From the NCBI GenBank assembly GCA_015075585.1, contig JABTUB010000001.1:496001-560000 (forward strand): a DNA stretch of 64,000 bases. Direction: 5' to 3'. Both the position numbers and the translations under genes were made by a program. The notes beneath the pieces are model-generated. The model was not told the origin of the DNA. It searched no databases and saw only the letters and a list, made by a program, of their open reading frames with translations. Source of the DNA: Chloracidobacterium sp. (GTDB taxonomy: Bacteria > Acidobacteriota > Blastocatellia > Pyrinomonadales > Pyrinomonadaceae). This document shows, one piece after another, positions 29,621 to 46,648 of this stretch (its first letter is position 1; every line of letters starts with the position of its first letter).

Positions 29621-29659
29621 CCGCAAAATGCGACGCAGAGCGCCGTCTTTCCGAAAGAA

Positions 29660-31288
29660 ATGTTTGTCGCACGCTTAAAACTCGGGTCCCAAGAAACCGA
29701 GCTGGCCAAGAGTGTAACAACCATCGGCCGCACGTCCGATAACGACATCGCCATTGATGACAGCAATGTTTCCCGTGTCCACGCTGAGATCGAGCGCCGC
29801 GGTGAAGACTATATTCTCATCGACCTGAACAGCAGCAACGGTACTGCGGTCAATGAGAATGCTCTTACTGATGAGATCGTTCTGAATGACGGCGACACGA
29901 TACTTTTCGGCGGTTCTGCCGAAGCGACGTTCCTCTACCGCGAACCTGAACCGGCAGAAGGCGCCGAGCGAGATCCGTCCGCCGGCACGCCCGGGACGGG
30001 TACTCCGCCGCACGCATCGTCAGGGTCAGGCGATCAGGCAGAACGTGCCGTTTTTGATGCGGAATATGCGGCTCTTCAAGGCTTGAGAATGTCTGTCGCG
30101 CCGTCAGGCGGCGGAGCTGCAAGTGCCGCGGCATCAACTGCAGCATCATCTTCGGGGGCATCGGCAGCGGTTTCAGGCTCGGACTCGATAAAGATAATTG
30201 CCGCTGTCGCTTGCGGTATCGCTCTGCTTGTCGCCGTCGGCGTCGGCGTGTTCTATCTGACACGCGGATCTTCGTGCAATGCGAAGGCATCGCTGGTAAG
30301 CCCGGAATCAGGCGACACGATCAGCCAGGCAACGGCGCTGACGTTGAACGTCTCGAACGGAGAGTGTGTCGCTAAAGCTGTGATCTCCATCGACGGTGAA
30401 GCGGTCGCGACGGCCGCGCCGCCCGAATTCAGCGCATCCGTCGATCCGGCCGATCATCCTGATCTGGCTGACGGTGCGGATCACAGCTTGACCGTTACGC
30501 TGACCGATGCTTCCGGAAATGTGGTTTTCACAACGCCCGGCACGATGTTGGCGTTCGAAACGCGCAAGGTCGCACCGCCTGCAACGCCGGCAGTCGCCAA
30601 CTCGAATACCGAGCCTGCTTCAAAGCCAATTGCCGCCACCCAGCTTTCGCTCGTGCAGATACAGCAGATGTGCCAGGCTTTTGTTAAGCAATTTTCAGGC
30701 GGATTTTCGTACAATATATCGAACAAGCAGTTTCTGCAGGACGTGCAGAAACGGACGGCGGATTACGCGGTCGAGGGCTATTCGCAGCGTGCGGCAGTTT
30801 ATCGCGACACGATAAATCTGGCTTTCGTCAGCGGGCAGAACCTCGATCCGGCATTGGGCTTCGTGCTTGCGATGAGCCGCAGCAAGTTCGTGCCGGCAAA
30901 GCAGGGCGATTTGGAAGGTTTGTGGCAGATGTCGAACACATTCGTTACTGACAACAAATACAACGGCCAGTGCGGCACCGAAACACTTTCCGATAAGTCT
31001 CAGAACTGCGCGGCCCGTGCGGCTGCAATGTATATGAAGACGCTGGTGTTTGACGTTTTCAAGGGCGATGTGGTCTATAGCGTCGCGGCGTTCGGTAAGA
31101 CCGCACAGGATGCCGCGGCGTGGAGCGCCGCGCTTCCGGCGAACCGCAGTGATATCGGAAGCGTGGTAAAAACGCAGACAGAACGCGAGCAGGTGATCAG
31201 ATTCTTTGCTGCGGGCATCGTTGCCGAGAATCCTCAGCGTTTTGGTTTATCAAAAGATACGCCGCTACCTTCGCTCTACCCGCATTAA
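29660..31288 (+). CDS. FHA domain - membrane helix - Ig-like - degenerate transglycosylase protein
   Basis: A 542-residue protein. An FHA domain fills about 1-95 with the full phosphothreonine-binding set: TIGRTSDNDI, VSRVHAEI and NSSNGTAVN. A low-complexity linker leads to one helix at about 177-200. The outside part has an Ig-like domain (209-300, VSPESGDTISQATALTLNVS) and a helical domain (330-535) that aligns with the lytic-transglycosylase domain of the next protein. Where that protein has its catalytic Glu320, this one has Arg407 (AMSRSKF against AMIESEH), and LEGLWQMSNTFV stands for LGMFQFTKATA. It is thus probably a non-catalytic, peptidoglycan-binding or regulatory relative. The next gene begins 3 bases after the stop. 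Confidence 0.75.
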   Translation: MFVARLKLGSQETELAKSVTTIGRTSDNDIAIDDSNVSRVHAEIERRGEDYILIDLNSSNGTAVNENALTDEIVLNDGDTILFGGSAEATFLYREPEPAEGAERDPSAGTPGTGTPPHASSGSGDQAERAVFDAEYAALQGLRMSVAPSGGGAASAAASTAASSSGASAAVSGSDSIKIIAAVACGIALLVAVGVGVFYLTRGSSCNAKASLVSPESGDTISQATALTLNVSNGECVAKAVISIDGEAVATAAPPEFSASVDPADHPDLADGADHSLTVTLTDASGNVVFTTPGTMLAFETRKVAPPATPAVANSNTEPASKPIAATQLSLVQIQQMCQAFVKQFSGGFSYNISNKQFLQDVQKRTADYAVEGYSQRAAVYRDTINLAFVSGQNLDPALGFVLAMSRSKFVPAKQGDLEGLWQMSNTFVTDNKYNGQCGTETLSDKSQNCAARAAAMYMKTLVFDVFKGDVVYSVAAFGKTAQDAAAWSAALPANRSDIGSVVKTQTEREQVIRFFAAGIVAENPQRFGLSKDTPLPSLYPH

Positions 31289-31291
31289 CTA

Positions 31292-32713
31292 ATGAAAGAT
31301 CTGATACTCGAATGTGCGACCGCAGATGAGACCTACGACATTACCGCCGTGGGCGATGTCATCAGTATCGGCCGCGGCTCCGATGCCTCGATACGGATCA
31401 ACGACGAAGGCTTATCCCGCCTGAATTCAACTATTTACAGGGACGGAAAGCGTATCTGGATAGTTGACGGATCGTCCACGAACGGTACATATGTCAACGG
31501 CGAGCCGGCCGCTGCTGTCGGCACACCTCTTAATGACGGCGATGTAATTCGGATCGGAACGGCGACAAAGCTGACAGTAAGGCTTCGCGAAGAGGCAAAA
31601 AGCGAAGCCTCGCCCGTGGAGGCAGAGCCGGCGGCGGGATCATCGGCGGCACCTGCAAAAAAGCCTTCGATGGTGCCGGTTATTCTGTTGGCAACTGCTC
31701 TGATGGTGATAAGTGCATCGGTCGTGTTCGGGATATTTGCCGTGTTCGGCAGTAAGACGCAGGATGTAGCAAATATTCCGAGGCACGATGACGACATTGA
31801 CGGGCAGGACGTCCCTTCTAAACCAAAAATGACATCAACGCCGACACAGACAGCAACGCCGTCCGCATCGAACGATAATACGGATGCTTCGTTGACGAAC
31901 TCCAACGCAGACTCGAGCGGGGCAGCCGTGCCGGGCGCTCCGACAAAGAAATACCAGGATATGAGTGACGCCGAGCGGCGTAAATACATTGAAACAAAGG
32001 CGATGTTCATCGCACAAGTGATCGGAAATAACTCGAGCGAAGCGATACCGGCCGCTGCCGTCGATAAGATAAAGGCCTTTGTTGATGCTTATGTTTCGCG
32101 AACAAAGGTCAAGCCGCTCAGCGGCTGCCGATTCGGCGACAATCTGCAGGCAACATACGAACGCGCGAGCAAGAATGCACCGTTCATTGTGCGTGCTTTC
32201 AACGAAAAAGGCATCGATCCGCGGATCGGCTTGTACCTTGCAATGATCGAATCGGAGCATTGCGTGTGTCTCCAAAGCCCGACCGGGCCTCTGGGTATGT
32301 TCCAATTTACAAAGGCGACCGCTGCTCTGCACGGCTTGAAGGTGTTTGCTGGTGCTTCGCCGTCAAATCCCGACGAACGCTGTGAACCCGCACCGGCCGC
32401 CGCCGCCGCTGCATCGTATATGAAAGCGCTAACTGGACGTTACGGCACCGGCCCTGCGAGCGTTCCGCTTGCCATCGGCAGTTATAATAGTGGTGAGGGC
32501 GGACTTAGCGCGAATCTTCAAAAGGCTCTGGAGTCGAACGCGGGCCTGCCGCGCGATTTTTGGACGCTGATCGCCAACGGCGATAAGCTCTCGAAACAGT
32601 TTCAGGCCGAGAATTTCAAGTATGTGCCGAAATTCTTTGCCGCGGCGATCATCGGCGAGAATCCGCAGGACTTCGGCCTCAACCTCCAGCCGATATCGAC
32701 CTATACGAAGTGA
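31292..32713 (+). CDS. FHA domain - membrane helix - lytic transglycosylase
   Basis: A 473-residue protein. The FHA domain (1-100) has SIGRGSDASI and SSTNGTYVNG, but the conserved His reads Asn (LSRLNSTIY). A helix at about 128-153 crosses the membrane after a basic PAKKPS patch. A Thr/Ser/Asn-rich linker (175-220) follows, then a transglycosylase domain of the SLT/MltD type: catalytic Glu320 in LYLAMIESEH, GPLGMFQFTKATA, LAIGSYNSGEGGL and YVPKFFAAAIIGENP. It should cut glycan strands in the periplasm while its FHA domain reads a phosphorylated partner in the cytoplasm. The stop overlaps the next ATG (32710). Confidence 0.82.
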   Translation: MKDLILECATADETYDITAVGDVISIGRGSDASIRINDEGLSRLNSTIYRDGKRIWIVDGSSTNGTYVNGEPAAAVGTPLNDGDVIRIGTATKLTVRLREEAKSEASPVEAEPAAGSSAAPAKKPSMVPVILLATALMVISASVVFGIFAVFGSKTQDVANIPRHDDDIDGQDVPSKPKMTSTPTQTATPSASNDNTDASLTNSNADSSGAAVPGAPTKKYQDMSDAERRKYIETKAMFIAQVIGNNSSEAIPAAAVDKIKAFVDAYVSRTKVKPLSGCRFGDNLQATYERASKNAPFIVRAFNEKGIDPRIGLYLAMIESEHCVCLQSPTGPLGMFQFTKATAALHGLKVFAGASPSNPDERCEPAPAAAAAASYMKALTGRYGTGPASVPLAIGSYNSGEGGLSANLQKALESNAGLPRDFWTLIANGDKLSKQFQAENFKYVPKFFAAAIIGENPQDFGLNLQPISTYTK

Positions 32714-33948
32714 TGCCGACACTTACGCTTAGATTTACCGATACTTCCGGCGAAAAAGTGACCGCGGAGGTGGAAAGGACGCCGTTCCTGATCGGCCGTC
32801 ATTCGTCGTGCGACCTGACGATCACCGACAGCCGCCTTTCACGGGAGCACTTGGTGATCGACCGCGAGGGCGATGAATACTTTGCCGTTGATCGAGGTTC
32901 GAGCAACGGTACACGATTGAACGGTGATGAGATCTTTGACCAAGTAAAACTAAGCAACGGTGATGAACTCGACCTCGGCGGGCTGGAGATGCAAGTTGAG
33001 ATCAGCACTACGCAAAAGGATGAGGCCTCGGCTGCGGCTGCGTCGCCCGAAAGCGCGAACCTTCCGCCAAAAGCCGCACTTGCAGCAACGCCGCCGGCAC
33101 CCGCCGGTATTTCAAAGACGTTCTTCATTATTGCGCCGCTGATGGCTCTCGCCGTATTGGTATTACTCGGTGTGATGCTTCTGACATCAACCGGCGGCCG
33201 GACGAGCACGAACAACGATGTTGCAGCGGGAACCGAGCCTTTTGATACGCCGACGACTCGCAATACGGCGGTAAAAAATGACGCCGCACCGACGCCGGAC
33301 ATCGGACAAACGCCCGTCAATTCCGGCAGCGATGTGAATTCCGGGCCTACGCCAAAGGCGTCGGACGAGAATTCGAAGATCGAACAGGCGGCATCGGCAT
33401 TTCTGCGCAGTGCGGCGGCCAACGATCCGCGTGCATTCATTACGGGTGCCCAGGCCCAGATCCTTGCACCAAAGGTGAGATCGGTCGCATCGGCATCGGC
33501 AACAGTCGACAACATCGCTTCTGCAAAGAAGAACGCGGCGGCGCTGAAGGCATTGGCTCAGGAGAAAAATCTTAAGCCGCAGTTCCTCGCCGTGGCAGCG
33601 ATCGCAAAGCTGGGCAATGATCGAGGTGACGTGCTCGCCACGGCACGCGCGATGGCACCGGCCCTTGATCAGTTCTCGATACAGATCGGCAATGAGCGGG
33701 GCGACGATTGCCTTCTGATGATAGCCGCGCTGGATCAGGGCGATCCTGTAAAGATGCGGAATATGCTGCAGGACCTCGCAACAAAGTCGAACGAATCATC
33801 TCGGACGATACGCACGATCTGGTTCTTGCAAAAGAACGGGAAAATAACCGATGCCGAGTATAATACTGCGTTGAACTTCCTCGCGGTCGGGACCGTTGTA
33901 CAAGACCCGCGGTCATTTGGCTTAACGGCCGAGCCGCTGGCACTATAA
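32710..33948 (+). CDS. FHA domain - membrane helix - highly degenerate transglycosylase-like protein
   Basis: A 412-residue third paralogue. The FHA domain (1-98) is canonical: LIGRHSSCDL, LSREHLVI and GSSNGTRLNG. A helix at about 136-158 (FFIIAPLMALAVLVLLGVML) crosses the membrane, a Thr/Pro/Asn-rich linker follows, and the outside domain (225-412) is helical. It keeps the tail shared by all three proteins (LAVGTVVQDPRSFGL against FFAAAIIGENPQDFGL), but the catalytic position reads Ala298 (VAAIAKL), and the GMFQF and SYNSG motifs are gone. It overlaps the preceding gene by 4 bases and ends 4 bases before the next. Confidence 0.72.
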   Translation: MMPTLTLRFTDTSGEKVTAEVERTPFLIGRHSSCDLTITDSRLSREHLVIDREGDEYFAVDRGSSNGTRLNGDEIFDQVKLSNGDELDLGGLEMQVEISTTQKDEASAAAASPESANLPPKAALAATPPAPAGISKTFFIIAPLMALAVLVLLGVMLLTSTGGRTSTNNDVAAGTEPFDTPTTRNTAVKNDAAPTPDIGQTPVNSGSDVNSGPTPKASDENSKIEQAASAFLRSAAANDPRAFITGAQAQILAPKVRSVASASATVDNIASAKKNAAALKALAQEKNLKPQFLAVAAIAKLGNDRGDVLATARAMAPALDQFSIQIGNERGDDCLLMIAALDQGDPVKMRNMLQDLATKSNESSRTIRTIWFLQKNGKITDAEYNTALNFLAVGTVVQDPRSFGLTAEPLAL

Positions 33949-33952
33949 GGCA

Positions 33953-34780
33953 ATGAAAGATGAAGAATGGGTAACGGGCGAGGTAAAGCTTCGCATTAAC
34001 GGCCAGCCTGTCGAGATGCAATTGACCGTGCCGGCATTCCCCGTCAAAGCACAGCGGATGCTGCCTATCTTTCAGAAGATGTCGTCGGCAGTGGTCGATG
34101 TGAGTGCGAATTTCGCGGTCGAATCGGGAAAGACGATCTCCTGTAAGGCGGGCTGCGGCGCCTGCTGCCGGCAAGCTGTGCCGATCTCGGAGGTCGAGGC
34201 TTATCATGTCGCAGATCTCGTTGAGGCTATGTCCGAGCCGCGACGTACCGAGGTGCGGCAGAGATTTGCCGATGCCTTGGCTCATTTTCGCGAGGTCAAA
34301 TGGTTCGATCAGTACGAGGAACTAAAACGGACGGCGAGTATAAGCGAGCCCGACCTGTCGGCAAAGGAATTCGAACGTGTTGTTCTCGACTATTTCCGCG
34401 ACGGCATCGCCTGCCCGTTCCTCGAGAACGAATCGTGCTCGATCCACATCGACCGGCCGCTGGTTTGCCGCGAATATCTCGTTACCTCGCCGGCTGAGAA
34501 TTGCCGCGATCCCAAGCCTACGAATATCGATCGCGTGCCGATATTTCTGCAGCCGTCAAAGGCCATGCCGCACGTCGGCCGGACGGCAAATATGGGAAAC
34601 GGCGTTACGATGATGCTGATCGAGGCGTTGGAATTCGTAGAAAAACATCCGGTAAGCGCACCGGAGCGGACGGGACGCGAGTGGGCGTCAGACTTTATGA
34701 ATAGGCTGACCGGCTCCGCGCAAAAGCCGGCTAATACACAGCCGAAACGTACATTGCGCCGCAAAAAGCGTCATAAATGA
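33953..34780 (+). CDS. YkgJ-family cysteine-cluster protein
   Basis: A 275-residue protein of the YkgJ/Fe-S-oxidoreductase-like Cys cluster family. The metal-binding pattern is CKAGCGACCRQAVPI near residues 63-77 and a second set in ACPFLENESCSIH and LVCREYLVTSPAENC. Families with this pattern are thought to hold zinc or an iron-sulfur cluster, with no settled reaction. The C terminus is strongly basic (RTLRRKKRHK). It starts 4 bases after the third FHA gene and so belongs to that transcript; tssK follows after a 69-base gap. Confidence 0.82.
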   Translation: MKDEEWVTGEVKLRINGQPVEMQLTVPAFPVKAQRMLPIFQKMSSAVVDVSANFAVESGKTISCKAGCGACCRQAVPISEVEAYHVADLVEAMSEPRRTEVRQRFADALAHFREVKWFDQYEELKRTASISEPDLSAKEFERVVLDYFRDGIACPFLENESCSIHIDRPLVCREYLVTSPAENCRDPKPTNIDRVPIFLQPSKAMPHVGRTANMGNGVTMMLIEALEFVEKHPVSAPERTGREWASDFMNRLTGSAQKPANTQPKRTLRRKKRHK

Positions 34781-34802
34781 TCGCGGCCGTGACCGGGCCA
34801 TA

Positions 34803-34835
34803 TTTACTATTTACCGCTCACGGTTTACTATTTAC
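34803..34835. repeat. Two 12-base direct repeats upstream of tssK
   Basis: TTTACTATTTAC occurs at 34803-34814 and 34824-34835 with a 21-base period (two helical turns), ending 14 bases before the tssK ATG. It could be a tandem operator. Similar words also occur in dispersed intergenic repeats of other genomes, so an element remnant is the alternative. Confidence 0.45.
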
Positions 34836-34849
34836 ACCGAGTTTATCCT

Positions 34850-36202
34850 ATGAGCAGATATCGCAAGATCGTATGGAACGAGGGGATGCTTCTCACGCCC
34901 CATCACTTTCAGCAGTGGGATAACTACCACGAGCAGCTGCTTCAGTCGCGTATTCGCTCTGTCGCACCTTTCGCTTATGGTGTCCTTGACCTGCAGATAA
35001 ACCACGAAGCGATCGCCAATGCGAATTTTCAGATCGTTAACTGCCGAGCGGTGATGCCGGACGGACTTTTTGTAAATGTTCCCGATGCAGAAGCCGTGCC
35101 CGATATGCGACCCGTCGGCGATCATTTTAGGGCCGAAGCCGAAAGGCTCGGCGTCCATTTGGCGATACCGGCCATGAAAACCGGCGAGGCGAATTACCAG
35201 GCAAGCGGTGCGAAGGCCGGACAGAATATCCGCTACTTGCAGGAAGGCGCAATGGTAAAGGATGAGACGAGCGGAACGAACGAACAGCCGCTCGCATACG
35301 CAAAGAGCAATTTGCGTATCATCTTTGATGATGAACTCCGCGACGGATTTACCGCGATAAAGATAGCCGAGCTTATACGCACTCCGACGGGCCAGCTGAA
35401 GATAGCCGAAGATCATATTCCGCCGGTGCTGCATGCGCCTGCATCGTCGTGGCTTGCCAATATGCTGCAGCAATTCGTCGAGATATTGATAACAAAGAGC
35501 GGCAGCCTCGGTGAGCAGCGGCGCCAGCGCAGGGCAGGCCTGGCGGATTTTACGACATCGGACGCCGGGATCTTTTGGCTGCTCCATACGATCAACTCGT
35601 CTATCCCTGCGATGTCGCATTTCTTCCGTTCGCCGCTTCTGCATCCTGAGCGGCTTTACCTGGAAATGGCGGGGCTTGCGGGTCGATTGATGACGTTCTC
35701 GACCGATATGTCGCCAAAGGATATCGTGAAATACGATCACGACGACCTTTACCTGACATTCAGCAGCCTGAACGCACAGCTTCGCGAATTGCTCGAGACC
35801 GTCATCCCGAGCCGCTGTGTCCCGATACCGCTCGAAAAGACACGCGATACGCTTTATGTCGGCCGTGTCGAGGACGAACGATTGCTGAAAGATGCCGCGT
35901 TCTATCTTGCTGTCCGCTCACAAATGCCCGAGGCAAAGCTTATCGAAGGTGTGCCGCGTGTCATCAAGATCGCCTCGCGTGATGTAGTTGATACGGTGAT
36001 CGGTTCGGCACTGCCGGGCGTTGTACTCACGCACCAAAGCCCTCCGCCCGCACCGATACCGGCTAGGATCGGCTTCAAGTATTTCCATCTCGATCCGAAC
36101 GGCCCCTATTGGGAAGGTATCAAGGGATCGAAGGTCATTGCGGTCTATGTCCCGGACGATATTGTAAGCCCCAACCTCGAAATGTACGCGGTAAAACCGT
36201 AG
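34850..36202 (+). CDS. tssK: Type VI secretion system baseplate subunit TssK
   Basis: A 450-residue TssK (VasE/ImpJ family), which links the T6SS baseplate wedges to the TssJLM membrane complex. The N-terminal signature IVWNEGMLLTPHHFQQ is near-canonical, followed by VLDLQINHEAIAN, GLFVNVPDAEAVPD, the helical middle (LANMLQQFVEILI) and the C-terminal head with KYFHLDPNGPYWEGI. Length is right for a full protein. It is the only T6SS gene in the window: no sheath, Hcp, VgrG, TssF/G, TssM or ClpV is seen. It lies downstream of the FHA cluster; FHA proteins are frequent T6SS regulators. Confidence 0.9.
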   Translation: MSRYRKIVWNEGMLLTPHHFQQWDNYHEQLLQSRIRSVAPFAYGVLDLQINHEAIANANFQIVNCRAVMPDGLFVNVPDAEAVPDMRPVGDHFRAEAERLGVHLAIPAMKTGEANYQASGAKAGQNIRYLQEGAMVKDETSGTNEQPLAYAKSNLRIIFDDELRDGFTAIKIAELIRTPTGQLKIAEDHIPPVLHAPASSWLANMLQQFVEILITKSGSLGEQRRQRRAGLADFTTSDAGIFWLLHTINSSIPAMSHFFRSPLLHPERLYLEMAGLAGRLMTFSTDMSPKDIVKYDHDDLYLTFSSLNAQLRELLETVIPSRCVPIPLEKTRDTLYVGRVEDERLLKDAAFYLAVRSQMPEAKLIEGVPRVIKIASRDVVDTVIGSALPGVVLTHQSPPPAPIPARIGFKYFHLDPNGPYWEGIKGSKVIAVYVPDDIVSPNLEMYAVKP

Positions 36203-40313: not shown

Positions 40314-40351
40314 TAGGCAGGCGTTATAGGTGATTGTTGTATCATAAGAGA

Positions 40352-42673
40352 ATGATGCTGCGCGTAGTTCTTTTGTTCGTTCTCTTCGCACTGATGTCGG
40401 CGGTGAACGTTTTCGGCGGTGCCGGTGAATACAAGCTCGCGTACGAACCGCTGATACGCATCGGCCTTGCGACCAACGCAAGCTCTGTAACGATAACCTC
40501 GGGCGACTCGGCACTTACGGCCGCAAGCCCCGATGAGGCGTTGCGAACGCTGACAACCGCTCGCGTTACGGTGTCGGCGCGGGCATACCGGCCGCCTGTT
40601 GTCGAGAATTATCATATCGAGTTTCAGGGCATTCCGATGCAGGCAGATGCCGAAGCACTTGCAAAGGACATCCGCGAAGCGACCGGCGAACCTGCGAGCG
40701 TCGGCCCGGACGCAGGCGCAAATACCTGGAAGGTGCGAGCGGGCAAGGACAGGCCTACCATCGATGAGGCCGAGGAATTTCGGGCGGCATTGGCCGACAA
40801 AGGCTTTGAAGATGCCGTTACGGTGGCGGAGAAGGTAACGGTCATTTCTCCCGAGGCAGTCGCACTTTCGCGGCAGGTCAAAAGTGCTGGTGCAAGCGAG
40901 GTGCGGAGCCTTGTAAAGCCGACAGGCTCGGCAAATCCGACCGCTGACGGCCCGATCGACCCGAATCTGCGTGAAGTGATAGTGAACGCTGCATCGCTCG
41001 AATCCAGCTTCCGTTCGCTCAAGGCGGTCGCGTTCGGCTCGCTCAACGATCGGATGAATCCTGTCAGGCTGAACGGAAAGGCTTACCGCGGCAGACTCGA
41101 GGTATTCGTGAATTCCCGAGGCACATTGACCGTCGTGAACGTTGTGCCGCTTGAGGATTATCTGCTCGGCGTCGTCCCGAGTGAGCTTGGCCTGCCGCAG
41201 CTTGAAGCCCAAAAGGCACAGGCGGTAGCCGCACGCACATACGCGATCGCTAACATAGGCGGCTACGGCAACCAAGGCTTTGATATGGTGCCGACCGTTT
41301 GGTCGCAGGTCTATAAAGGCGTTTCTATAGAGACGCGGATGGGGACCGAAGCCGTCAGGCAGACGCGCGGCATCATCGCCACATATCAGGGCAAGCCGAT
41401 AAATGCCCTTTACACATCGACTTGCGGCGGCCGTACCGAAGACAGCGAGAATATTTTCGAGTTCGCCGAGCCGTATCTTCGGGGCGTCGAATGTTCGCTC
41501 GAAGGCCGCCGCCATTTCGATCCGTTCATCATAAAGACGACCCGCGCGGCGGTTCACCTGCGTGATGAAGCGAACCTTGAGTTGGTTCGTTTCGTGTCGC
41601 TGATGGCCGCGAACGGCTTTTATCTTTCGACGCAGCAGTTGTCAGATGATTGGTTCGATTCGGAGCCGAGCCAAAATGAGATGTCGAATTGGCTCAATAA
41701 TCTCGCTTCGCGCTTCGGTAAGCCCGCGCCGGCCGTTGCACGCGACACCGCAAAGCCGGCGGAACTCGCTCATGTGCTCGCGGGTTTCATCTATTCACCG
41801 GGGTATGCGGACACGATGCTCACCGAGTCGGACATAAATTACAACCTGATGTTCGATGATGCCGCCGAAGTGCCGCGTGACCGCCGAGCCGAAATGGCGT
41901 TGCTTCTTCGCGACGGCTATTTTGCGATCAATCCTGACCTAACATTGCAGCCGAATCGAGCGTTCACGAGGGCAAAGATGCTGCGGCTCATCAGGCAGAT
42001 ATATCAGAAGAAAAAGTGGATGCCCGAAGTGCTTACGGGTGAGGCAAAGGCAAGTGTTGACGGCAAGCTTGTGATAAAGAACGGACGCTCCGAAAAGACG
42101 CTTGCCGTGAGGCCCGACGTTTTTCTTTTTCGTCAGTTCGGCACATCTTTCTACGCGGTTCGAGAGGCGGCCCTTGTCGGCGGCGAACAGGTAAGCTATC
42201 AGGTCGATGCCCTCGGTGCGGTCAAGTATCTCGAGGTGCAGCCGACCGATCAGCCTGCGACAGCGGAGAATATGTCGCCGTGGGTCAATTGGACGAAGAC
42301 CGCATCGGCATCATCGGTTCAGTCGCGGCTTTCGCGTTACGTTCGCGGCATCGGCACGCTGTACGACATCAACGTGAAGAAGGTCGGCTATTCACGACGC
42401 CCGATCGAGCTTGAGATCGTAGGTTCGAACGGGATAAAGACGCTGAAAGGCGGCAAGATACGCTCGGCACTGCGCCTTCCCGAACAGCTTTTTGTGATGA
42501 ACAAGCGGTACGGCGGCTCATCGGTAACAAGCTACACTTTTACGGGACGCGGCTGGGGGCACGGCGTCGGTATGTGCCAATACGGAGCGTTCGGAATGGC
42601 AAAAATGGGCGTGAAATATCAGGACATCATCAAACACTATTACACAGGCGTCGATCTGACGCAGGCGTATTAA
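40352..42673 (+). CDS. SpoIID/LytB-domain exported protein
   Basis: About 773 residues from ATG 40352. A signal peptide covers 1-23 (LRVVLLFVLFALMSAVNVFGG). The SpoIID domain spans about 235-390 and 690-770: FVNSRGTLTVVNVVPLEDYL, GVVPSELG (Glu278, the catalytic acid of SpoIID transglycosylases), AQAVAARTYAIAN and STCGGRTEDSENIF, then GRGWGHGVGMCQYGAFGM near the C terminus. Between them lies a long insertion with S-layer-like helices. SpoIID cuts denuded glycan strands. The organism need not sporulate, since LytB-type members serve other wall functions. The HinP1I-like gene starts 12 bases later. Confidence 0.9.
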   Translation: MMLRVVLLFVLFALMSAVNVFGGAGEYKLAYEPLIRIGLATNASSVTITSGDSALTAASPDEALRTLTTARVTVSARAYRPPVVENYHIEFQGIPMQADAEALAKDIREATGEPASVGPDAGANTWKVRAGKDRPTIDEAEEFRAALADKGFEDAVTVAEKVTVISPEAVALSRQVKSAGASEVRSLVKPTGSANPTADGPIDPNLREVIVNAASLESSFRSLKAVAFGSLNDRMNPVRLNGKAYRGRLEVFVNSRGTLTVVNVVPLEDYLLGVVPSELGLPQLEAQKAQAVAARTYAIANIGGYGNQGFDMVPTVWSQVYKGVSIETRMGTEAVRQTRGIIATYQGKPINALYTSTCGGRTEDSENIFEFAEPYLRGVECSLEGRRHFDPFIIKTTRAAVHLRDEANLELVRFVSLMAANGFYLSTQQLSDDWFDSEPSQNEMSNWLNNLASRFGKPAPAVARDTAKPAELAHVLAGFIYSPGYADTMLTESDINYNLMFDDAAEVPRDRRAEMALLLRDGYFAINPDLTLQPNRAFTRAKMLRLIRQIYQKKKWMPEVLTGEAKASVDGKLVIKNGRSEKTLAVRPDVFLFRQFGTSFYAVREAALVGGEQVSYQVDALGAVKYLEVQPTDQPATAENMSPWVNWTKTASASSVQSRLSRYVRGIGTLYDINVKKVGYSRRPIELEIVGSNGIKTLKGGKIRSALRLPEQLFVMNKRYGGSSVTSYTFTGRGWGHGVGMCQYGAFGMAKMGVKYQDIIKHYYTGVDLTQAY

Positions 42674-42685
42674 CATTCATCGGAA

Positions 42686-43528
42686 ATGAAGTATTCCATG
42701 CGCAGTGCAAGACCGCAGGTTAGATGTGCCGCATTACTTGTCGGCATCGTCCTCGCGCTGTTCGCACCGCTGCACGCTCAAGGCACCGCCCCCGCAAAGA
42801 TAAAGCTTGGCTCTGAAACGGCCAAGAACGGTTTTAAGAATGAGGATGAGATCCGCGATAAGTTCAATGATTGGCGTAATGACCACGATGCCCGCGAGTG
42901 GCTGATCGCGATGAATTTTGATCCGTCGAAGATCGAGAGCGTCGTTGCCGCCAAGCCGCATGGTGAAAAGGCAGATGTTGAGATCACGGTAACAACGGCG
43001 GACGGCGTTCGTAAGGAGGGCATTTCAATAAAGCTCGTGTCGAGCGCGAACGGCTTTAATCAAGTAGATAAACGCTGGCTTGCGACCTACGCCCGTATGT
43101 GGAAAATGCCGGATGATGTTCATAATTCGCTGAAATTCTTTGTCGGCGAGGTCCCGCCCGCGGCAAAAAGCCGTGACCCCAAGCGGATGTATCTGAACGA
43201 GCTGAGTGATGACGAACGTCAAGCCGTTCTCGACTTCTTTACCGCGAATAAGGACAAGATCGCTGCCGATCTGATCGCGGGCAGCGGCGTTCACGCCGCG
43301 CGATGGGTAATGGTCGCGTATAAGGCAACTGATGATACACGCTGGGTCATACGCTCAGCGTCGGACGCGATCAAGTATTTCAGCGAAGGTGATGTTGAGC
43401 TGACGCGAACGGGCAATTTGAAGATCGGCCGCATCACAATGCAGCGCAAGGGCGGCGACGGCGGCCGCGAAACCGCTAAGATGCTTCAGTTCAAGATAAA
43501 TCCGGTACAGCTATTTCCCGCACAATAG
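42686..43528 (+). CDS. Exported HinP1I-like restriction endonuclease homologue
   Basis: A 280-residue protein. From residue 40 to the end it aligns without large gaps with the type II enzyme HinP1I (cuts GCGC), as remembered: LGSETAKNGFKNE, IKLVSSANGFNQVDKRWLA, KRMYLNELS, ARWVMVAYK and RITMQRKGGDGGRETAKMLQ all have direct counterparts. HinP1I catalytic Asp62 and Lys83 correspond to Asp97 and Lys116; Gln81 corresponds to Ser114. Residues 1-32 form a signal peptide absent from HinP1I (basic start, CAALLVGIVLALFAPLHA, then cleavage). No in-frame start skips it. No methyltransferase gene is nearby. It sits 12 bases behind the SpoIID gene and 1 base from a convergent gene. Confidence 0.85.
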   Translation: MKYSMRSARPQVRCAALLVGIVLALFAPLHAQGTAPAKIKLGSETAKNGFKNEDEIRDKFNDWRNDHDAREWLIAMNFDPSKIESVVAAKPHGEKADVEITVTTADGVRKEGISIKLVSSANGFNQVDKRWLATYARMWKMPDDVHNSLKFFVGEVPPAAKSRDPKRMYLNELSDDERQAVLDFFTANKDKIAADLIAGSGVHAARWVMVAYKATDDTRWVIRSASDAIKYFSEGDVELTRTGNLKIGRITMQRKGGDGGRETAKMLQFKINPVQLFPAQ

Positions 43529-45691: not shown

Positions 45692-46648
45692 GTGGACGAA
45701 AACCGAGCCGAGATCTACGCGATCGCAGGGCCGACCTGTTCGGGAAAAACGAAGCTGGCCGTTGACCTGGCATTGCAGATCGGCGGCGAGGTGATCAATT
45801 TTGATTCGGTACAGATCTACAAAGACATCGAGGTCGCAACCGCGAAGCCGACCGCTGACGAAATGTGCGGCGTGCCACATCATCTGATCGACTATGTCGA
45901 TCCGAACATCACATATACGGCGGCGGATTGGGCGGGCGATGCAGTGAAAAAGATAGCCGAAATAGAGGAACGCGGCAATCGCGTCATCCTCGTCGGCGGC
46001 ACGGGCTTTTACCTTCGCACGCTGCGTCGCCCGCTTTTTGAAGCGCCGGCGACCGACCCGCGGCTTCGCGAGCATTTCCGCTCACTGCATCGAAGCCACG
46101 GTGCACATTACCTGCATGAAATGCTTGCAGAACTTGATCCGGAGCTTGCCGACACGCTGGAATTGAACGATTATGTGCGTGTCATACGCGGCCTCGAATA
46201 TTTCTATCAAACGGGCCGCAGATTGTCTGAGGTGCAGCCGGAGCGACAGGAGCCGCCTGAGTTTGCGTCGCGCATTCGGTTATTTGTCCTCGACCCGCCG
46301 CGCGATGTTCTCTACGAAAAAATAAACCGACGGACCGAGGCCCATTTCGCCGCGGGCCTCGTCGAAGAGGTCGAACGCCTCCGTGCCGAAGGCGTTCGCG
46401 ATGACACGAACGCACTCCGAGCGCATGCGTATCGCCGTGTCTGTGAATTTCTTCGCGGTGAGCGTGATCTCGCGTCCGCGATCGAAAGATCAAAGCAGGA
46501 CGTGCGGCATTATGCGAAGCGGCAATTGACATGGTTTCGCAGCGAACCTGACGCGATATGGCTAAAGGGTTTCGGAACAGACGACGGACAACTCGCCGCC
46601 TTGCTTGAACAGGTTAGTAATGAGCGAAGCGAAAGTATTGTCGCATAA
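45692..46648 (+). CDS. miaA: tRNA dimethylallyltransferase MiaA
   Basis: A 318-residue enzyme that prenylates A37 of tRNAs reading UNN codons. The P loop is AGPTCSGKTKLAVDLAL; DSVQIYKDIEVATAKPT and GVPHHLIDYVDP follow; VILVGGTGFYLRTL and QDVRHYAKRQLTWFR are the other family blocks. It uses DMAPP from the MEP pathway, four genes of which are in this window. The start is GTG 45692, with a GATAAT hexamer 9 bases upstream and no Shine-Dalgarno. hfq follows 49 bases later. Confidence 0.95.
   Translation: MDENRAEIYAIAGPTCSGKTKLAVDLALQIGGEVINFDSVQIYKDIEVATAKPTADEMCGVPHHLIDYVDPNITYTAADWAGDAVKKIAEIEERGNRVILVGGTGFYLRTLRRPLFEAPATDPRLREHFRSLHRSHGAHYLHEMLAELDPELADTLELNDYVRVIRGLEYFYQTGRRLSEVQPERQEPPEFASRIRLFVLDPPRDVLYEKINRRTEAHFAAGLVEEVERLRAEGVRDDTNALRAHAYRRVCEFLRGERDLASAIERSKQDVRHYAKRQLTWFRSEPDAIWLKGFGTDDGQLAALLEQVSNERSESIVA

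Follow-up and report, generated by a model that had tools for sequence, protein, structure and literature searches.

How can a bacterium own a type II restriction enzyme that appears to be made for export and has no methyltransferase gene beside it? The textbook case of a toxic cytoplasmic enzyme that needs a matching methylase is the type II restriction enzyme, and an export tag on one is unusual, since these enzymes normally act in the cytoplasm and have the gene of a protective partner next to their own. In the literature searched we found no description of a secreted type II restriction endonuclease. The gene that raises the question lies in a 64,000-nucleotide stretch of DNA, which we call the window (Table 1). 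We think, with a probability of roughly 60%, that its product is an endonuclease of the periplasm (or beyond) that acts at GCGC on incoming or extracellular DNA, the chromosome being kept safe by its separate compartment, with methylation and avoidance of the site as probable further safeguards in this genus.

Table 1. Features of the endonuclease gene and its conserved neighbours in the window
Feature	Coordinates	Strand	Basis and remarks
Gene for a putatively exported restriction endonuclease of the HinP1I family (precursor of 280 aa)	42686..43528	+	PF11463, phmmer, AF2 model
Predicted Sec signal peptide, likely cut after ...LHA then Q (residue 32); start Met1 or Met5	42686..42781	+	n-region, hydropathy, cleavage motif
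Asp97 (HinP1I catalytic Asp62)	42974..42976	+	the same in all 90 relatives (45 exported, 45 cytoplasmic)
Ser114-Ile115-Lys116 (HinP1I Gln81-Val82-Lys83)	43025..43033	+	alignment of 90 relatives
GFNQVDKR block (HinP1I G90-H97)	43052..43075	+	G90, N92, Q93, D95 and K96 invariant in exported and cytoplasmic sets
QRKGGDGGR block (HinP1I Q221-R229)	43442..43468	+	Q221, R222, K223, G224, G228 and R229 invariant in both sets
SpoIID/LytB-domain protein	40334..42673	+	PF08486 E=2e-20, TIGR02669 E=5.5e-63; 12 nt upstream of endonuclease gene
MiaA (tRNA dimethylallyltransferase)	45692..46648	+	PF01715 E=8.6e-77; opens downstream conserved block MiaA-Tmk-HolB

What does the gene encode?

The similarity to HinP1I is far beyond chance. 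A profile search covered PF11463 (R-HINP1I) from position 1 to 208 of 208, with 210.3 bits against a cut-off of 25 (E=2.8e-62), and phmmer matched the HinP1I chain 1ynm_A to residues 39-277 (E=1.4e-68), which bears out an earlier, sequence-only reading of the protein as an end-to-end homologue over residues 40-280. That reading had also proposed a comparison of an AlphaFold model with the HinP1I structures. The AF2 model, made from an alignment of 70 related sequences, has a pLDDT of 91.9, and its top structural match is DNA-bound HinP1I (2fkc_A; E=4.9e-31, TM 0.92 by target length, rmsd 2.1), followed by apo HinP1I and then by MspI (1sa3_A, TM 0.60-0.64). A HinP1I-type gene is present in one copy in the 2.97 Mb, two-contig genome.

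Is the signal peptide a real feature of the protein?

Signal peptides were assessed by hydropathy, charge and cleavage motif, and by these measures the roughly 32 residues that HinP1I lacks have the classic layout claimed for them: a positive n-region, a 9-residue mean hydropathy of 3.28, and a signal peptidase I-like end followed by Gln. In-frame start codons occur within the first 80 codons at positions 1, 5 and 76 only, so that none skips the peptide yet keeps the start of the core, again as first proposed, and we therefore reject a downstream start that would bypass the peptide.

The comparison with relatives takes this beyond a single protein. It covers 90 non-identical sequences, 45 of an exported type and 45 of a cytoplasmic type, and the counts that follow are of sequences and not of independent events. 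The cytoplasmic-type proteins start a few residues ahead of the core motif GSxTAK, and the exported-type proteins are longer at the N-terminus, mostly by some 28-40 residues and in single cases by up to 60. All 44 exported-type sequences with a readable start have a Sec-like layout: positive charge at the start, then a core with a 9-residue mean hydropathy of 2.1-3.9, then a cleavage site of small residues that Gln usually follows; an [AG]-then-Q motif ends the peptide in nearly all members. A comparable hydrophobic extension is found in 7 further planctomycete copies. No cytoplasmic-type relative has such a layout; the nearest case, L097, has an optional hydrophobic upstream start, but has a start near the core too. 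The peptide is a trait of the clade and tells against a cytoplasmic site of action, and a chance fusion or an assembly error can be set aside, given 51 copies from two phyla, one of them in a single 8.92 Mb contig.

Two further observations bear on where these proteins live and how they arose. The mature part contains any cysteine at all in 5 of 45 exported sequences versus 31 of 45 cytoplasmic ones, and this near-absence is in keeping with an extracytoplasmic protein. A branch with 100/100 support divides the exported sequences from all others in the tree, and those from planctomycetes are nested among the acidobacterial ones, so that transfer between phyla after the gain of the peptide is the simple reading. 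Judged by these sequences, the fusion is no isolated case: it marks a whole branch of a type II restriction endonuclease family, conserved and apparently exported.

Where is the gene found, and with which neighbours?

The exported-type gene occurs in 36 of 40 sampled genomes of a single Pyrinomonadaceae (Acidobacteriota) genus, but was absent from the 20 other genera sampled in the family and from 37 genomes from other families of the class; within one planctomycete order, 16 of 150 genomes have it, including the single-contig genome just mentioned. All 22 acidobacterial loci with longer flanks retain at least one member of a common neighbourhood, which argues for vertical inheritance at one address. 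The typical order, seen at several loci of the genus, runs from SpoIID upstream through the endonuclease gene to MiaA-Tmk-HolB downstream; SpoIID is the nearest upstream conserved gene at several loci, and an insertion intervenes at others. The planctomycete copies sit elsewhere, beside helicase, BacA or topoisomerase genes, and have no SpoIID. The sequence-only reading had called SpoIID an operon partner, but a functional partnership does not follow: an inherited neighbour that is absent beside the planctomycete copies is probably not a functional partner, and we have rejected it as one. Mobile spread was likewise rejected, since no phage match to the endonuclease was found, and the two viral contigs and three Mollicute plasmid records that do match it (38-48% identity) fall in the range of the cytoplasmic group.

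A few kb upstream of the endonuclease gene, at 29621-36199, the window also holds genes for three proteins with an FHA domain, one of which has an SLT transglycosylase domain too, adjoining a T6SS TssK/VasE gene; these form part of a type VI secretion cluster.

Is there a methyltransferase after all?

Linkage to a methyltransferase (MTase) divides the two groups cleanly (METHYLTRANSFERASE): an MTase gene lies directly upstream in 44 of 45 cytoplasmic relatives (32 m5C, 12 N4-type; the L088 MTase looks frameshifted, L096 is cut by a contig end and L077 lies at one) versus 0 of 45 exported ones. No MTase was found among the ORFs scanned in the window, as the sequence-only reading had said, and none adjoins the endonuclease gene. 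The phrase 'without a methyltransferase' holds for linkage, but for the genome it is unproven. Among several other MTase genes, the genome has one for a solitary N4-type MTase about 60 kb upstream of the window (G000:C1:435867-436664, L166) that is 53-57% identical to the MTases beside nine cytoplasmic HinP1I relatives. It is found in 39 of 41 genomes of the genus at 68-85% identity and in 0 of 20 other genera of the family, where there are distant matches only, and its gene has a conserved location of its own, without a neighbouring HinP1I-type endonuclease. From its sequence, we regard it as a candidate partner of the exported endonuclease.

How close that kinship is can be judged in several ways. 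At the columns that separate HinP1I-linked from HindIII-like-linked MTases, the genus enzyme agrees with the former at 8 of 11 and with the latter at 1; its target-recognition region has indels relative to the HinP1I-linked MTases; and the MTase tree leaves its placement nearer one group or the other unsettled. The second group consists of related MTases at 45-49% identity that pair with a different gene, which we take, by eye, to be HindIII-like. As a separate matter, the cytoplasmic HinP1I relatives themselves pair with two unrelated MTase kinds, either m5C or N4-type (L086, L092-L107), and these partners have apparently been swapped more than once on the endonuclease tree.

The planctomycetes tell a different story. 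The solitary N4-type MTase is absent in 12 planctomycete carriers, and 7 of these, whose genomes may be incomplete, are also without any m5C MTase; with no consistent MTase found among them, export alone may be enough there. An L290-type m5C MTase was considered as the planctomycete cognate and rejected as not obligate (6 of 16 carriers versus 19 of 134 non-carriers). In our own genome, the full-length m5C MTase (L002) is an unlikely cognate: it adjoins an NgoFVII_C-domain gene, scores 296 bits versus at least 424 for intact HinP1I-linked m5C MTases, and belongs to a class of which 16 of 41 genus genomes have no member. That pair of genes (L002, 1468-3698), in which the m5C MTase comes first and the product of the second has an NgoFVII C-terminal DNA-binding domain, is probably a complete second restriction-modification (R-M) system of the genome.

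Does the genome avoid GCGC?

The sequence-only reading pointed to GCGC in the genome, and the site it named (1971-1974) is indeed one of 286 in the window, yet the sampled genome has only about half the expected density: observed over expected (O/E) is 0.55, by Markov expectation on sampled stretches totalling 324 kb, the second lowest of the 16 palindromic tetramers. For carriers of the genus pooled, GCGC is the lowest of the 16 at 0.46 (single genomes 0.26-0.70), versus 1.07 and the highest of the 16 in pooled sister genera without the gene (single genomes 0.91-1.25), and these ranges of single genomes do not overlap. Four genomes of the genus in which no endonuclease gene was detected are depleted too (0.52-0.71). 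Among planctomycetes, the values are 0.58 for carriers versus 0.68 for non-carriers (p=0.009, kinship ignored); the non-carriers are partly GCGC-poor as well, so that depletion there is weak evidence. No excess of GTGC or GCAC was seen, and cytosine deamination was therefore rejected as the cause of the loss.

Genomes that have long housed an orthodox type II system typically avoid its sites, and the avoidance can persist after the system is gone (PMC4687349). The depletion supports a long exposure of the genus to GCGC cutting and is silent on where that cutting happens; with the enzyme outside, it would need an extra step, such as exposure of the cell's own DNA ahead of export, an effect on the DNA of kin, or a cytoplasmic system in an ancestor. 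Other tetramers have their own histories. In the window and sampled stretches of the genus (L153-L165, L206-L214), CATG is strongly depleted too, at 0.48 in our own genome and 0.14 in G014, and is the lowest palindromic tetramer in several genus genomes. GGCC is almost missing (O/E 0.00-0.03) in some other genera of the family (L198, L200, L201 and L202, from G052, G045, G047 and G058), a sign of a different strong restriction history.

Taken with the MTase, the depletion can be read in other ways than ours. The solitary MTase might have another site altogether, with GCGC depletion left over from a complete R-M system that the ancestor of the genus once had and with the exported enzyme now relying on export alone. 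The indels in the target-recognition region and the pairing of its relatives with the gene that we named HindIII-like would suit this, as would the genus genomes that lack the endonuclease and retain both MTase and depletion, and avoidance that can outlive its system (PMC4687349). The agreement at the discriminating columns speaks against it, and so does an MTase distribution that is genus-wide and genus-only, the same as that of the endonuclease; we consider this a serious possibility, though not a likely one.

Unlikely, in our opinion, is a conventional type II system whose genes have come apart, with an endonuclease held at the inner membrane or partly inside that cuts DNA as it enters the cytoplasm, so that the cell needs the solitary N4-type MTase for self-protection. 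The co-conservation of an MTase of the HinP1I-linked subfamily is what this would predict, and orthodox type II systems of long standing are expected to bring about avoidance such as that of GCGC (PMC4687349). The peptides, however, end in cleavage motifs in nearly all members and are not anchors, an anchored protein of such topology would face outward, the loss of cysteine fits life outside, and the planctomycete carriers have neither this MTase nor another that is consistent among them.

Is the active site intact?

We take the active site of HinP1I to be Asp62, Gln81 (a metal site) and Lys83. The retention of the catalytic Asp and Lys, as originally claimed, is upheld, Lys116 being invariant in 90 of 90 relatives just as Asp97 is, but the claim overlooked the third position, where Gln81 is replaced by Ser in the whole exported clade. 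Ser is also found in 9 cytoplasmic homologues, several of which adjoin an intact MTase (for example, L066, L071 and L078), so that the substitution alone does not imply lost activity; it may have altered metal use or rate. The GFNQVDKR block is presumably a DNA-facing loop, by homology with the DNA-contacting loop of HinP1I. The QRKGGDGGR block is as well kept, with G225 and D226 nearly invariant in exported and cytoplasmic sets alike. Pairwise dN/dS within the exported clade is 0.08-0.19, a mark of purifying selection at the level of these sequences.

These residues bear on two more alternatives. A secreted nuclease that has lost its sequence specificity and serves scavenging or biofilm DNA turnover would be in keeping with export, with the lack of a consistent MTase in planctomycetes, and with Ser for Gln81 and other clade-specific changes, but the exported clade has retained the DNA-facing blocks in which the cytoplasmic relatives do not vary, and GCGC is the very tetramer depleted in the genus; we hold this to be unlikely. 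A domesticated envelope protein that binds DNA and does not cut it, for which the changed metal-site residue might be cited, is very unlikely indeed, given the Asp62 and Lys83 equivalents invariant in 45 of 45 exported proteins, the low dN/dS, and Ser in presumably active cytoplasmic enzymes beside an MTase.

How might an exported restriction enzyme work?

We favour an endonuclease that acts across the inner membrane from the chromosome. The precursor would be exported unfolded via Sec and cut by signal peptidase I, and the mature enzyme would fold in the periplasm (or be released beyond it) and cut double-stranded DNA at GCGC, be it phage DNA in transit, transforming DNA or the DNA of lysed cells. 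Self-damage would be avoided mainly by compartment, the active enzyme and the chromosome lying on opposite sides of the membrane, and the genus would probably have second layers of protection in the solitary N4-type MTase of the HinP1I-linked subfamily and in the loss of GCGC sites. Sequence specificity, which we infer, would suggest defence or control of DNA entry more than feeding, and a four-base cutter would be an odd choice for nutrition. A bolder version is an R-M system split across the inner membrane, in which the N4-type MTase, in the cytoplasm, would mark the GCGC sites of the chromosome, and the endonuclease, in the envelope, would break down any DNA with unmarked ones. Foreign DNA would thus be cut before entry, and kin DNA would survive, with uptake possible; we offer this tentatively, as something that we would not expect to hold in full.

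How does it compare with known systems, and why does it matter?

An exported clade, kept throughout one genus and, it seems, transferred to another phylum, would mean that a cell can live with such an enzyme in a second way, by holding it apart from its chromosome. The cell envelope would then be a site of sequence-specific DNA defence, and the clade would offer a direct test of the effect of restriction on natural DNA uptake.

The closest known system is R.HinP1I of Haemophilus (G^CGC; PDB 1YNM, 2FKC; PF11463), with which the protein shares the whole fold, the catalytic Asp and Lys, the DNA-facing blocks and 42% identity in structural alignment. R.HinP1I, in contrast, lacks a signal peptide and is part of an m5C R-M system with linked genes, whereas the exported enzyme has the peptide, Ser for Gln81 and no linked MTase. 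R.MspI (C^CGG), the next structural relative, is cytoplasmic, of other specificity and 14% identical. Cytoplasmic HinP1I relatives with an N4-type MTase (in Bacteroidota and Chloroflexota; L086, L103, L105) are of the same endonuclease family, and, L105 and L108 apart, the MTases of this group rank with the closest relatives found for the MTase of the genus; their endonucleases, however, begin directly at the core and adjoin their own MTase. Export itself has precedents in E. coli EndA and Vibrio Dns, non-specific endonucleases that have a signal peptide and act on DNA outside the cytoplasm, but these differ from a HinP1I-type enzyme in their unrelated fold and their lack of sequence specificity.
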